Assembly: GCF_001904655.1 (NCBI RefSeq)
Contig: NZ_MRCC01000006.1
Coordinates: forward strand, 1 to 64,000
Origin: Chroogloeocystis siderophila 5.2 s.c.1
GTDB lineage: Bacteria; Cyanobacteriota; Cyanobacteriia; Cyanobacteriales; Chroococcidiopsidaceae
Direction: 5' to 3'
Length of the DNA stretch: 64,000 nucleotides
Within the stretch, counting starts at the first letter, position 1; every line of letters starts with the position of its first letter. The notes under the pieces are model-generated. The model ran no database searches, was not told the DNA's origin, and worked only from the letters and a program-made list of their open reading frames with translations. Below, piece by piece: positions 38,544-64,000 of the stretch. A program made the position numbers and the translations under genes.

Positions 38544-38578
38544 ATTAAAGGTAAGAAAGTTATCTTCTTACCTTTAAT
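38544..38578. terminator. Bidirectional terminator between ndhN and the NACHT gene
   Basis: A perfect 14-bp stem (ATTAAAGGTAAGAA at 38544-38557 and its complement at 38565-38578) with a 7-base loop sits between two convergent genes, with AT-rich flanks on both sides. It could stop transcription from either direction. Confidence 0.7.
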
Positions 38579-55630: not shown

Positions 55631-56392
55631 ATGAAAGCCTCTATAGCTATTACTACTACACTACTGGTAGTTTCTGTCGTACCTTCTGCATCGGCTAATA
55701 CCGAAAAGATCCAACAACTTCTAGCGACAAAAGAGTGTCAAAACTGCGACTTGAGTGGTGCTGGGTTAGTTTTGGCTAATCTATCAGGTGCAAATTTGAG
55801 TGGTGCAAATTTAAGTGGCGCCAATCTCAGTCGTGCCAATCTTAGCGGTGCTAACCTTGTTGGTGCAAATCTTGTTGGTACAAGTTTATTTGGGGCAAAC
55901 TTAAGTGGCGCTATCTTGAGTGGTTCGGATTTAAGTGCGGCTGACTTGCGAGATACTTTTTTAGCAAACGCCAATTTAACTGGTGCGCAGTTAGCTGGGG
56001 CAAATTTACAGGGTGCAGTAGGTATACCACCGCAAATAGGAAATGCGGAAGATTTTTATGGTTGGGGTGTCGTGCAAGGTAAAAAAGGAGATCCACAAGG
56101 TGCGATCGCCTATTTCAATCAAGCATTGAGTATTAAACCTGATTATGCTGCGGCGTATCTGGCAAGGGGTGTGGCACGCTACCAACTTTTTGATCGCCTT
56201 GGTGCGCTGCAAGATGCTAAACAAGCCGAAAAACTTTTTTCAGCGCAAGCTAATAACGATGGGTTACAAACCACGCAAGTTTTTATTGCAGAACTAGAAA
56301 ATCCTCCGAGTGAATCTGTACCAAAAAGTAAACCAAATTTTATGAACTTTCTAGGTGCAGTAGGTTCAGTTTTATTAAGATTTTTATTTTGA
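55631..56392 (+). CDS. Secreted pentapeptide-repeat and TPR-like protein
   Basis: 253 residues. A signal peptide (residues 1-22, ending ASA) is followed by a short linker with CQNC and about 16 consecutive A(N/D)LxG-type pentapeptides (roughly 40-125) that should form a right-handed quadrilateral beta-helix. A TPR-like helical pair follows ([20 protein letters not shown] at about 155-175), and the protein ends in a hydrophobic segment. The fold mediates protein contacts in the periplasm or on the membrane; no partner is evident. Its stop codon lies 9 bases from the candidate attC site of the cassette. Confidence 0.85.
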
Positions 56393-56401
56393 ATGTTTGT
56401 T

Positions 56402-56487
56402 GGGTAACGGTGAAGTTGTGCGGCGGCAGATAACCTTAAACTCTCACCGACAACCTCTGTTCCGTCCGCACCAACGCATTGTTAGGT
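56402..56487 (-). other. attC: Candidate integron attC site after the endonuclease gene
   Basis: On the minus strand the outer box R'' reads ACCTAAC (56481-56487; consensus RYYYAAC), 11 bases after the endonuclease stop. It is followed by L'' GTTGGTGCGG, which pairs with L' CCGCACAAC near the other end but leaves one extra G unpaired. That is the extrahelical base typical of attC. A further bulge and an unpaired centre follow. The inner end is GTTACCC (56402-56408), of which TTACCC should belong to the flank. The site spans 86 bases. It is identified by eye, without a covariance model. Confidence 0.7.
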
Positions 56488-56498
56488 GGCTGTTGCTT

Positions 56499-57467
56499 CT
56501 ACAAACTGCACAGCCAACGAGAAATAGATGCAACTTGGTCCTCCTCATTTAGGTTTGCAGCATTACTGAGCATCCCACTTTGTAGTTGCTCCCAAATTTC
56601 GCCAGCCATCCTTCTCTCGATCGCTGCCCCTACAAAAAAGGTAAGTGGTGAATGACCAGCATCTGCAAAGGCTTGTCGTATACGATTCAGCGCCGCTTGT
56701 GCCGTTTTCCAATGCTCGTCAGCACCGGCTGGATCAATTCCGCCCTTCAACTCTCCCAAGGCAATTGTGTAAGGCTCAACTTCAACAGGTTCTATCTTGC
56801 TGGATTTATTCGCGGGCAGTGCTTCTGGCGCAAGATTGAACAAACAGAGATCTACATTACTTTTAACCAACGGAATATTTAGGTTATAGATAAGTGTACG
56901 CCTACCAAGATCACTCTCCCAACTGAGTCCGCGTAAAGATAACTCAATTTCTGCATCGTCATTTGTCATCGCTATCCACTTTTTTGTCTTTGAATGCTGC
57001 CAATGGTAACTTTGACCTGCAATGGTCAGGGTTGAAAGAATAGCACGAGTCAGTTTCCTTTGGGCGAGCGCTCCACCGATATTACGCATTGAACCACCGA
57101 GCGTATCGCCACGAGTCAATAGAAATCTAAAGACTAATTCCTCTACAAAATTTGCACCTGCTGGTTCAAGAAAGTTCTTAATTAGACCGTTAATCGCATC
57201 AATTTTATCCTCTGCGGTCAAATGAGCAAGAGATTTGTCCGATAATCCTGCCGCAGTCAACAGTCCCATCTCGATACCCTGAACGTTTAGCAAATCAGCA
57301 GGATTTCTAACTTGATTTGCTGCTGCTTGAAGTGCCCTTGCCTCTGCAACATAAGGGGTAGCCCGTCGATTCTTCTCAAGTGCAAGTGCCACAAAGCCCG
57401 CACGAGTCGCTTCATAGGTTGTTACAAGATCATCACTAGACTGAAGATGGTTAAGATAAGCAGTCAT
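56499..57467 (-). CDS. Type II restriction endonuclease, AvaI/BsoBI family
   Basis: 322 residues. From memory it closely resembles AvaI and BsoBI, which cut C^YCGRG, including the start [20 protein letters not shown]. Catalytic residues corresponding to BsoBI Asp212, Glu240 and Lys242 are Asp206 (SNVDLCLF) and Glu239 and Lys241 ([13 protein letters not shown]). All are intact, so it should be active. The start ATG is 9 bases after the methyltransferase stop. The specificity is inferred from family resemblance, not tested. A candidate attC lies 11 bases after its stop. Confidence 0.9.
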
Positions 57468-57476
57468 AGGATCAGG

Positions 57477-58910
57477 TTACTGTTTTCTCCATACATAAAC
57501 ACATTTTCTCAAGGGATCACGCCCATGATTTCCCATTTGCTGACTACTGTTACCCTTATCACCAGGCAAAACGAGAATATTTTCAACGATAAAACCTAGT
57601 TTCTCTGCAAAGTCAGAGAGGATCATATCCACTGAAATACTTACGCCGGAGTAACGCACATTGTCATTGACCATAAATAACAGTGCCCCAGGTTTGAGTA
57701 CGCGAAAACATTCTTGTATGACACAAGCCATTTCATAAAAGTAACCTCTCACCATCCTGGGTATTCCGTTATTATTTAATACACCCTGGAGTTTCTGATT
57801 ATCTAAATATTTTAGGATGGCTTGCAATAAAGGTTGTGAATTCGCAGTCTCTATAGCCAGGTTCCAATTTGGATTGATAGCCAATAGATCTTTCAAGCGA
57901 TTTTCAACTGTGCAACTTAACATCTCCTGTCGGAGATTGATTAGTCCCTTTTCAGAAACATCTAACAATGCAAGCTCTAAGGCATAAGTACGAGTGTAGT
58001 CATATCGATTGCAATAGGGTGGAGACGTGATAACAGCGTCATAAATTGCATCAGGTAAAGTCGGCAGCAATTTTAGGCAAGATCCTTTAAGAAGTTTGAT
58101 TTCACCTTGTGGTCTCCTAACTGAAAAAAGTTCTACCTGATGTGTAGGGGGTTCCAGATCATCAATAATTTCTTGGATTTTATTGGTAATAGCATAATCA
58201 AAATTTAGGATTTCACCTTTATTGAAAGGCTTTTTCCCCTGTCCACGACCGGAGCGATAATCCCAACGAAGATATTGTCCATCTTTGCGAGTGTAGCTTA
58301 TAGACTCTAAAACACATAGTAGAGCAAAGAGCAAAACCTCTCGAACTCTTTCGCTCTCCTGATAACAAGCTCCGAGGTACTGCTCAATTGCTCTTTTATT
58401 TTCTGTAGAATAAGCTCCTTTTGTAATCCTAAATTCTGGTAAACAGAACTCTTTATCAGCCTGTTTCCATATTTGCGAACTCAACCAAGTTTTAAGACGT
58501 ACAAGATCATCGAATGTAAATCCTGTATCAAGGGCTTTCTTCGTCTCAATAATTTGTTGACCAATTGGTAACAATTCAATGCCATCAGCATTAAGTCCCA
58601 AATCACTAGCGGCAAACAAAGCCGTTCCGCTACCTGCGAAGGGATCTAGAATCTTGCCCTGATTAAACCCGTATCTTTGAAATAAAAACTCAACAAGAGA
58701 AGCGGAGAAGGCTTCTTTGTACTTGTACCATCGATATATAGGTCTTGTTTTGTTAGCTTGAAAACTTACTAAAAGCCTAGTAAGTGCAGGCTGAACTAAA
58801 AACTTAGATTGGAAATGGTGCTGCAATTGCTGGTCAAGGTTGTCAATTTCCCTAAGAGCAATATTTTGCACTTCAGGAGCAATATCGGAGATGCTTGACA
58901 GACTTACCAC
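57477..58910 (-). CDS. DNA (cytosine-N4) methyltransferase of the AvaI-like system
   Basis: 477 residues. The SAM-binding motif DPFAGSGT (89-96) precedes the catalytic motif SPPY (296-299, [14 protein letters not shown]), the SPPY form favouring N4-cytosine methylation. It would protect host CYCGRG sites from the endonuclease. Translation starts at GTG 58910 with a GGGG stretch upstream. No ATG lies in the correct N-terminal region. It is the first gene of the pair and is expressed from its own candidate extended -10 promoter, so protection can precede cutting. No separate controller (C) gene was found. Confidence 0.9.
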
Positions 58911-58943
58911 AAGTATTAGTCCCCATGAAACACAGATCTGCTC

Positions 58944-58952
58944 ATTATACCA
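58944..58952 (-). promoter_or_regulatory. Candidate extended -10 promoter of the methyltransferase
   Basis: On the minus strand TGGTATAAT (58944-58952) combines an extended -10 (TGN) with a perfect TATAAT, about 34 bases before the GTG start. A good -35 box is missing, which is normal for extended -10 promoters. It lies inside the cassette, so expression need not depend on an integron promoter. Confidence 0.5.
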
Positions 58953-59034
58953 GTGCTTCTAGGAGTCTGCCGAATCAAGGTTACATCGAATGACCTCTCA
59001 AGATTGCTCTAACAGATCTAACAGATATGTGAAA

Positions 59035-59044
59035 GCCACCTAAC
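59035..59044 (-). other. attI: Leading core site at the attI-cassette junction
   Basis: The minus strand reads GTTAGGTGGC and contains the integron core GTTRRRY. A second core-like GTTAGAT lies at 59016-59022. The exact complement of the 10-mer is at the attC outer arm. The junction is 211 bases before intI, so attI proper would occupy roughly 59044-59200. Confidence 0.6.
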
Positions 59045-59210
59045 TATTAATAGACGGAATTTTTCTACCTAAGATCCCATACTGGGTGGATAGACAGAAT
59101 GATTCGGTATATACCCCCAATTTAGTACTTATGCCGATATTTCCCTTATATTAAGCCGTTTAGGATGAATAGCAAGAATCTTTCCGCATATTTTCAGATC
59201 CCTTACGGAG
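59045..59210. other. attI-proximal region upstream of intI
   Basis: No open frame. It contains the integrase promoter and presumably the IntI-binding repeats of attI. I could not define them beyond the core site at 59038-59044. Confidence 0.4.
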
Positions 59211-59251
59211 ATAAGTAAGTGTACTATTAAATACACAATACACTTACTTAT
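59211..59251. promoter_or_regulatory. Perfect 13-bp inverted repeat immediately before intI
   Basis: ATAAGTAAGTGTA (59211-59223) and its exact complement TACACTTACTTAT (59239-59251) are separated by 15 bases and end four bases before the intI ATG. As DNA it could be an operator for a dimeric regulator. As RNA it would form a hairpin next to the start codon and limit translation. Neither function is demonstrated. Confidence 0.6.
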
Positions 59252-59255
59252 TTCT

Positions 59256-60218
59256 ATGCAGCCACCTCCTAAAAAATTGCTGGATCAGGTACGGGATGCG
59301 ATTCGTCTCAAGCACTACGCCTACCGTACTGAAGAAACATACGTGCAGTGGATTCGCCGCTACATCCTGTTTCACAATAAGCGCCATCCAAAAGAGATGG
59401 GCAAAGCTGAAATTGAAGCATTCCTCACCTATTTAGCTGTCGAGGGGCAGGTTTCCGCTTCGACTCAAAATCAAGCGCTTAGTGCGCTGCTGTTTCTCTA
59501 TCGCGAAGTGCTCAAGCTGGAAATGTCGGGCATTGATGCCGTTCGAGCGAAACGACCTCAGTACGTGCCTACCGTGTTGACCAAACAGGAGGCGATCGCC
59601 GTGATTCAGCAGTGTGACGGTATTTATCAACTGGTTGTGAAGCTACTCTACGGAAGTGGTCTTCGTTTAATCGAAGGGTTGCGCTTGCGAGTGAAGGATG
59701 TTGACTTTGCCCAACAGCAAATCGTGGTCAGAGATGGTAAAGGTAGCAAAAGCCGCGTGACAATGCTGCCATCGAGTGTCGCAGCAGAATTGCGAGATCA
59801 TCTAGTGGGTGTTCAACGACAGCACCAACGAGACTTGAGTCGAGGGTTTGGGACCGTGAATCTGCCCTTTGCACTTGAGCGTAAATATCCAAATGCCAAC
59901 CGAGAATGGATCTGGCAGTACGTATTTCCATCCAGTTCAATGACCAAAGATCCACGCAGTGGGTTAGTGTGCCGACATCACTTACATGAAAGTGGAGTAC
60001 AAAAGGCGGTTAAACAAGCTGCAAGGGCTGTAAAGCTCACTAAGCGGATTGGCTGTCACACCTTCCGTCATAGCTTTGCCACTCATTTGTTAGAGAGCGG
60101 GTATGACATCCGCACGATTCAAGAACTGCTTGGGCATAAGGACGTTAAGACAACAATGATTTACACTCACGTTCTCAATCGTGGTGGAAAGAGTGTGCGA
60201 AGTCCACTTGATTTATAG
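59256..60218 (+). CDS. intI: Integron integrase IntI (tyrosine recombinase)
   Basis: 320 residues. The tyrosine-recombinase catalytic set is complete: Arg137 (GSGLRLIE), Lys162 or Lys165, His268 and Arg271 ([11 protein letters not shown]), His294 (LLGHKDV) and the nucleophile Tyr303 (TTMIYTHVL). The extra helix that distinguishes integron integrases from XerC/D is present at about 203-224 ([20 protein letters not shown]). It recombines attC hairpins with attI. The gene diverges from the R-M cassette. It appears intact. Horizontal origin is plausible. Confidence 0.93.
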
Positions 60219-63044: not shown

Positions 63045-63445
63045 ATGGTTGACCTATTGTTAATGATAACCATAGGTTTTCTAGGGAGTTTTGGACACTG
63101 TGTGGGAATGTGTGTTCCCTTGACGACAGCGTTTTCATTATCATTGACGCAGCAGCAAACTTCTCCCCTTTGGCAGCAACAGTTTACCTTCCATCTTTTA
63201 CTCAATTTGGGTAGATTGCTAAGCTACACCTTAGTAGGTGCCGAAATTGGGGCTTTAGGTTCTGTCTTAATTGCTGGCGGACAAATGGTGGGGATGGTAG
63301 TTGGTTATGCCAGGGAATTGCAATTTTGACCTGGTTGATGCTGATTTGGTTTGGTATTGTTCAAGTTAAACCTCAATTTTTGCCGCGTCTACCGTTTCTG
63401 CATCCTTTGATTCAAGGAAATTTGCACAATCGCTTAAGTGCGGCA
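63045..63445 (+). pseudogene. Frameshifted, truncated UreH/SafE-type membrane protein gene
   Basis: The first part (63045-63329) begins IGFLGSFGHCVGMC, the usual start of the UreH-like or SafE-type sulfite/metal exporter domain, and has two hydrophobic segments. After about 63300 the homologous sequence continues in another frame (QGIAILTWLMLIWFGIVQVK, then LPRLPFLHPLIQGNLHNRLS). It breaks off near NRLSAAM at about 63445, where the AraC-like gene begins. A full protein would be much longer with several more helices. A sequencing indel could explain the frameshift but not the missing C-terminus. Confidence 0.7.
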
Positions 63446-64000
63446 ATGTTTCAAATGTCAGATATATTAAATCTTAAATTTCACAAATCCTACCTAACAA
63501 GCCTTTGCTTTCTAGTTACCAGTTGGGTTGGGAAGAAATTTATGTGCAACATCACCAACAACCTCCAGGAGAAACACCCAAAATTTGTGGACTTCATCAC
63601 GTAGTTGTTGTACATCACAATCAGCAAGTCATGCAATCAGAACGGCTGTTTGATAAGCAAAGGAAGAAAGCACAGTATACCATTGGAGATATTGAAATTT
63701 TACCAGCAAATGTGCAATGTCAAGCGATTTGTGCTAAAGAAACAGAGTTCACTTTACTTTTTTTAGAGCCAAATTTTGTAGCTAGGATTGCTTATGAATC
63801 TATCTCTCCCGATTCTATTGAGATTAAGCCACACTTCCCAACTGCCGATCCTCTAATTTATCAAATTGGACTGTTGTTAAAGTCAGAAATCGCATCGAAG
63901 GGAGTATGCAGTCATCTTTATAGCGATTCTCTCAAAACTAATCTTGCAATTACTTTGCTGAGGCGTTACTCGGTTCGGAAGCTAGATTTAGAATATAATA
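63446..64000 (+). pseudogene. AraC-family regulator, partial, with apparent frameshift
   Basis: ATG 63446 opens MFQMSDILNLKF. After about 63478-63490 the family-like sequence moves to another frame: ILPNKPLLSSYQLGWEEIYV, then HHQQPPGETPKICGLHHVVV and ERLFDKQRKKAQYTIGDIEI, to LAITLLRRYS at the edge. This is the sensor domain typical of cyanobacterial AraC-type regulators; the DNA-binding domain lies outside the window. One inserted or deleted base in the A/T-rich run would restore the frame. Confidence 0.65.

Follow-up and report, generated by a model that had tools for sequence, protein, structure and literature searches.

A clade-wide inverted repeat beside the integrase gene of cyanobacterial integrons and its possible role in restraining integrase synthesis

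The integron and its inverted repeat

The stretch of DNA analysed here (the window, 64,000 nt from Chroogloeocystis siderophila 5.2 s.c.1) carries an integron with a single gene cassette. Its integrase gene, intI (59256–60218, + strand), encodes 320 amino acids in an open frame and scores 471.5 bits against the integron integrase model TIGR02249 (cut-off 265), in keeping with the identity given to it by the first-pass annotation, which had been made from the letters alone. The closest relatives among the matches listed are L001, L002 and L129, the last on plasmid pB of Kovacikia minuta, with 94–96% IntI identity. The attI region occupies 59044–59200, and its crossover putatively falls on the C of 59044 (− strand: G|TT), a placement that follows from the cassette ends and from the point where homology to other loci stops; 212 nt separate this position from the intI ATG, and the cassette lies beyond. 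The cassette (56408–59043, − strand, 2636 bp, with the ends AGCCACCTAAC and GTTAGGTGGCT) adjoins attI and points away from intI, as both its genes are on the − strand, and its ends match. These genes encode an N4/N6 DNA methyltransferase (57477–58910, − strand, PF01555, 42.7 bits) and a BsoBI-like restriction endonuclease (56499–57467, − strand, PF09194, 570 bits), so that a complete type II restriction-modification pair makes up one integron cassette. In the Kovacikia minuta plasmid relative, a different DNA methyltransferase gene is found at the cassette's place. The cassette attC lies at 56408–56491 (− strand) except for its last 10 nt, which in the integrated form are at 59034–59043; joined, attC is predicted to fold as a single long hairpin whose R''/R' ends span 11 bp (−22.0 kcal/mol), and the integrated stretch 56403–56491 alone folds like shuffled sequence (z −0.09). 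The host genome also holds a second intI (L082, G000:C7:194114-195076) that is 62% identical and contains five stop codons, and at 63045–63604 of the window a reading frame is apparently split across two overlapping frames.

The inverted repeat is positioned between attI and intI, which is where the promoter of an integron integrase is expected (PMC8876359). Its left arm ATAAGTAAGTGTA (59211–59223, + strand) and right arm TACACTTACTTAT (59239–59251, + strand) form a perfect 13-nt pair around a spacer of 15 nt, and TTCT follows before the intI ATG at 59256; the letters are thus as first described, with 13-bp arms ending four bases before the start codon. The repeat search extends the arms to 59208–59223 and 59239–59254, and over these 16 nt it gives 94% complementarity with G-T as the odd pair. 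Two perfect inverted repeats with arms of at least 13 nt and spacers of 3–30 nt are present in the 64 kb, against a mean of 0.025 in 200 shuffled windows. The second lies at 38544–38578 (arm 14, loop 7). As RNA, the interval 59180–59300 folds with a z of −4.0, and none of 200 shuffles was equally stable. The 41-nt pattern with up to three mismatches occurs at a single place in the 5.0-Mb host genome (99.8% complete), matched on both strands because it is palindromic, and the search of the rest of that genome yielded no second copy. An Rfam scan of 56300–59700 with E up to 1 gave no family match at the repeat, and no published description of it was found in the literature scanned by title and abstract opening.

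Closer to the cassette, an imperfect palindrome at 59090–59112 is the sole one over a 70% threshold within 59044–59200 of the window. Judged by eye, many cyanobacterial relatives have such imperfect palindromes, about 23 nt long with a GAA..TTC core, in the interval from attI to intI, and in some they abut the ATG. These palindromes are possibly integrase binding sites.

Relatives of the repeat and retention of its pairing

Relatives of IntI were drawn from genome contigs (best 80 of 489), the host family, wider groups, viral contigs and plasmids, and further loci came from searching 388 genomes of the class at the DNA level. Thirty distinct stretches span 59195–59262, and 28 of these were aligned as A1, with the diverged L190 and L251 left out. 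The rows of A1 comprise ten with an open intI (319–323 aa), 17 with a broken intI, defined as an open frame of at most 162 aa or no ATG, and the undecided L170, in which intI is open to the end of the available stretch and which was left out of the comparison of intact and broken rows. Two genomes (G669 and G779) have the same matches and are apparently one, so L001, L131, L143 and L188 were taken as one locus. The counts do not include loci that are close in intI and do not span the repeat, among them L150/L184 and L252, which hold parts of intI only; just the right arm is kept upstream in L150/L184, and the upstream sequence of L252 is unrelated. Three further entries from the search with the repeat model (L285/L296, L284/L295 and L294) are likewise outside A1 and the counts; L285/L296 combines the dyad with an open 322-aa intI.

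The consensus of A1 is GAGATGAGCAAATGTAC, a 13-nt loop and GTACATCTACTTATCTC, followed by one or two bases and the ATG. In all 28 rows the dyad is 1–2 nt ahead of the start-codon position; L241 and L253 no longer have the ATG itself. Looking upstream of homologous intI genes had been proposed at the outset, and the dyad was indeed recovered there, in 28 distinct homologous stretches; L001, L002 and L129 have an imperfect form of it at the same place. Absence of the repeat from all close homologous loci, which had been named as an outcome that would count against it, was thus not observed, yet it is absent from the nearest outgroups L003 and L004 and then L005 and L006 (74–80% IntI identity). 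A search with the repeat model matched nothing in G011 and G012, two genomes of the same genus. In a tree of 100 IntI proteins, taken from 149 loci, the nine hairpin members form one clade with support 99/97. Their hosts belong to the families f1, f34, f38 and f61, among others, and this spread over several host families indicates that the clade has moved between hosts.

Some loci have retained little of the integrase gene. L238, L239 and L240 (all in one genome), L241, L245, L246 and L294 are platforms with the hairpin and homology to only about 4 to 36 intI codons, beside differing upstream DNA. An attI region is seen in five of them, the homology of L246 and L294 starting only at 59188 and 59169, and L238, L239 and L240 resemble one another in their downstream sequence. 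Platforms of this kind are possibly attI sites served in trans.

Pairing is kept in the dyad while the letters of its arms drift. In A1, 82.9% of the cells form standard pairs compared with 80.5% in column shuffles, and 24 cells are changed on both sides compared with 12.3, neither value being reached in 500 shuffles; two of the five measures were not above the shuffles, namely both-side-changed pairs (68/500 as high) and pair types (249/500). In the 13 rows of alignment A2 alone the signal is weak, the covariation being reached by 31 of 500 shuffles, and RNAalifold on A1 proposes no pair. Column shuffles ignore descent, and evolution without a pairing constraint was hence simulated on a tree of the flanks, which is weak, being built on about 220 nt; each column was given as many changes as were observed in it. 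In the real alignment 69.7% of the cells are Watson-Crick pairs, against 51.5% (sd 5.6) in the simulations, none of 400 being as high. When the ancestor was set to a perfect hairpin, under three rootings, the simulated mean was 40–57%, with P at most 0.0025 for Watson-Crick pairs and at most 0.005 when G-U was included. The window alone, with 15 of 17 pairs Watson-Crick, gave P of 0 to 0.0225 in these latter simulations and is the best paired of the ten intact rows of A1. The arms had a mean of 3.9 changes per column, compared with 3.6 in the eight columns that precede them.

Counted on the same weak flank tree, single steps away from Watson-Crick pairs led to G-U in 32 instances and to A-C in 25 (P 0.4), with no strand preference. 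Watson-Crick pairing is 67% in the 17 rows with a broken intI versus 73% in the ten intact rows, and the most perfect hairpins (L245, L246, L250 and also L294) precede a broken intI. The arms of L294, with about four intI codons left, are near-perfect and include a both-side change to G-C where 27 of the 28 rows have A-T.

The loop and a possible block on read-through translation

The letters TACTATT are conserved in A1 at the left edge of the loop. Columns T26, A27, T28, T29 and C35 have 1, 0, 2, 2 and 0 changes, respectively; apart from an A and a C the remaining loop is as variable as the arms, with 7–9 changes in each of columns 30, 31, 36 and 38. We read TACTATT as a −10 box because TAnnAT is enriched upstream of intI in the other relatives, of which 81 of 119 have it between −62 and −20 (38.7 expected in shuffles). 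The spacer thus probably holds the −10 box of the integrase promoter, with TACTAT at 59222–59227 (+ strand) lying across the left edge of the loop. A strict sigma-70 scan found no intI promoter and none on the − strand. Given the position of this box, the transcript is predicted to start at 59234 (+ strand), with a leader of about 22 nt that lacks the left arm, and transcripts from the gene's own promoter would therefore be unable to fold.

Several other roles of the element were considered and rejected. A symmetric two-way promoter would need a mirror −10 box that includes columns 36 and 38, and these vary; the segment is, by reasoning, too short for an invertible promoter. An attC-like folded site would require an R box (GTTRRRY), and there is no GTT on either strand of 59205–59258. 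A hairpin that bridges the distant GGAG (59207–59210) to the ATG does not agree with the loss of GGAG in several rows of A1 (among them L210, L209, L187 and L249).

The reading that we favour, tentatively, is that the stem-loop surrounds the intI promoter, forms in read-through transcripts alone and there conceals the start codon. An mRNA initiated near 59234, as set by the −10 box at the left edge of the loop, would contain the right arm only and be translatable, whereas a read-through mRNA from upstream would contain both arms and could form a stem of 16 bp that stops a single base short of the AUG. Such a stem would hide the start region from ribosomes, and integrase would be made from its own promoter only and not by stray transcription. 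In nine intact loci, the predicted cost of opening the start region (−18 to +12) is 11–23 kcal/mol for read-through RNA versus 4–12 kcal/mol for RNA from the predicted start, with a difference of less than 3 kcal/mol in L001. A lock of this kind accounts for the conserved −10 letters, for arms that drift and stay paired and for the place of the dyad beside the ATG. Little read-through is expected in the window itself, since the cassette genes just upstream run the opposite way. Against the lock, G-U is not favoured over A-C, and selection on the sense RNA has thus left no mark. It also leaves unexplained why pairing should outlast intI, which either copy correction between the arms or use of the dyad at the DNA level would explain.

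Fold-back structures protect the transposase mRNA of IS10, IS50 and IS200 from read-through transcription. The arrangement predicted here is similar in that both arms would be present only in read-through RNA, with the start region hidden, and differs in being a sequence-based prediction for an integron integrase. No case of a fold-back lock of an integron integrase was found in the literature scanned by title and abstract opening. A folding leader RNA ahead of a recombinase gene is likewise reported for ISPpu9, where the 5' UTR of the transposase mRNA is structured; the gene there is a transposase, and small RNAs are involved (PMC8450116).

LexA boxes, rival explanations and integrase control

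In other integrons the integrase is tightly held, and LexA is the best documented control (PMC8876359). According to the available part of PMC3108266, LexA control has been lost from integrons of groups whose LexA reads another motif, residual control of the E. coli type is found in some groups, and the intI promoters analysed in Cambray 2011 completely lack LexA motifs of any type but that of E. coli. The cyanobacterial LexA box is RGTACNNNDGTWCB (PMC3091678, a source that mentions neither integrase nor integron). A box of this type was sought in the window and rejected, the best match within 75 nt upstream of intI being 11/14 while the promoter of the host lexA has a 14/14 box, and the first-pass view that the repeat does not match the LexA box of cyanobacteria was therefore correct. 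A lexA gene is present in 14 of 14 genomes tested, and ahead of lexA the box is 14/14 in seven of 16 loci (host included) and 13/14 in six, with three unscored. Upstream regions of intI were scanned for 137 of the 149 loci (18 hairpin, 119 others), leaving out 12 under 60% identity. Within 75 nt of intI the other relatives have a match of at least 13/14 in 19 of 119 regions (1.6 in shuffles) and of 14/14 in six (0.00 in shuffles). These six are L038, L166, L198, L203, L204 and L233, and L203 carries part of intI only. Of the 18 hairpin-clade rows, 13 score 12 or 13 of 14 at their best match, located on the left arm (3.55 expected), three reach at least 13/14 (0.30 expected) and none 14/14. The cyanobacterial-type boxes in the relatives contrast with the absence of divergent boxes reported in the available part of PMC3108266.

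These matches, together with the presence of lexA in the genomes tested and the wobble steps without strand asymmetry, are what a DNA operator would lead us to expect, in which a pair of protein sites flanks the −10 box, with the left arm as TGAGCARATGTACT and the right arm near its reverse complement, descended from LexA boxes and perhaps bound by another repressor now. We consider such an operator possible, if on balance unlikely: no hairpin-clade row retains a full box, the window is down to 11/14 though best paired of the ten intact rows, and drift of the arm letters under kept pairing is unlike an operator that is read by its sequence. The first-pass annotation had offered a different operator or an RNA hairpin limiting integrase production; the hairpin survives as a live option, and the choice between the two is not settled by wobble pairs that show no strand preference. 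In the LexA-controlled PintI of class 1 and Vibrio integrons a dyad at the −10 box is likewise thought to keep integrase low, and the window differs from it in having no LexA box and in arms that drift while pairing holds (PMC3108266, available part).

It is rather unlikely, in our estimate, that the dyad has no function of its own and is an old inverted repeat whose arms stay matched because replication switches template from one to the other. Such copy correction fits the persistence of pairing ahead of broken intI genes, among them L294 with its near-perfect arms, new both-side change and few remaining codons, and the finding that all 17 non-intact rows are broken speaks for it relative to the proposed lock. 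Compared with its tree sister L185, moreover, the window seems to have block-wise corrections (left columns 12–17, right columns 41–44), as copying would produce, although five events are too few. Copy correction would not explain why several loop columns barely change or why the dyad remains 1–2 nt from the start-codon position in 28 of 28 rows, and the breaks of intI may be too recent for pairing to have decayed.

Less probable again is that the hairpin acts in RNA of the opposite strand, as part of the leader of cassette transcripts starting inside intI. The − strand folds as well, and platforms with a truncated intI retain the hairpin together with the attI region and a few initial intI codons beside differing upstream DNA, but the strict scan gave no promoter on that strand and the wobble steps show no preference for it. 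A chance repeat, for which the AT-rich sequence and nothing more could speak, is refuted by the relatives, the 0.025 expected per window and the homologous dyad in 28 distinct stretches confirming the original impression that it was unlikely to be accidental.

The dyad is real and clade-wide, and its place at what is probably an integrase promoter makes a function plausible. In the simplest history suggested by the comparison, a LexA-type promoter would have given rise to the dyad, which would then have persisted after its likeness to LexA boxes was gone. Whether LexA control was replaced, in this mobile clade of cyanobacterial integrons, by a hairpin with the promoter in its loop, preventing translation of any integrase mRNA not derived from the gene's own promoter, is a more demanding proposition, and a doubtful one. 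Integrons must keep their integrase low, and the dyad may serve as a safeguard that holds integrase production down. With cyanobacterial LexA boxes upstream of intI in cyanobacterial relatives and a conserved dyad instead in one mobile clade, integrase control in the integrons of cyanobacteria is opened to testing.
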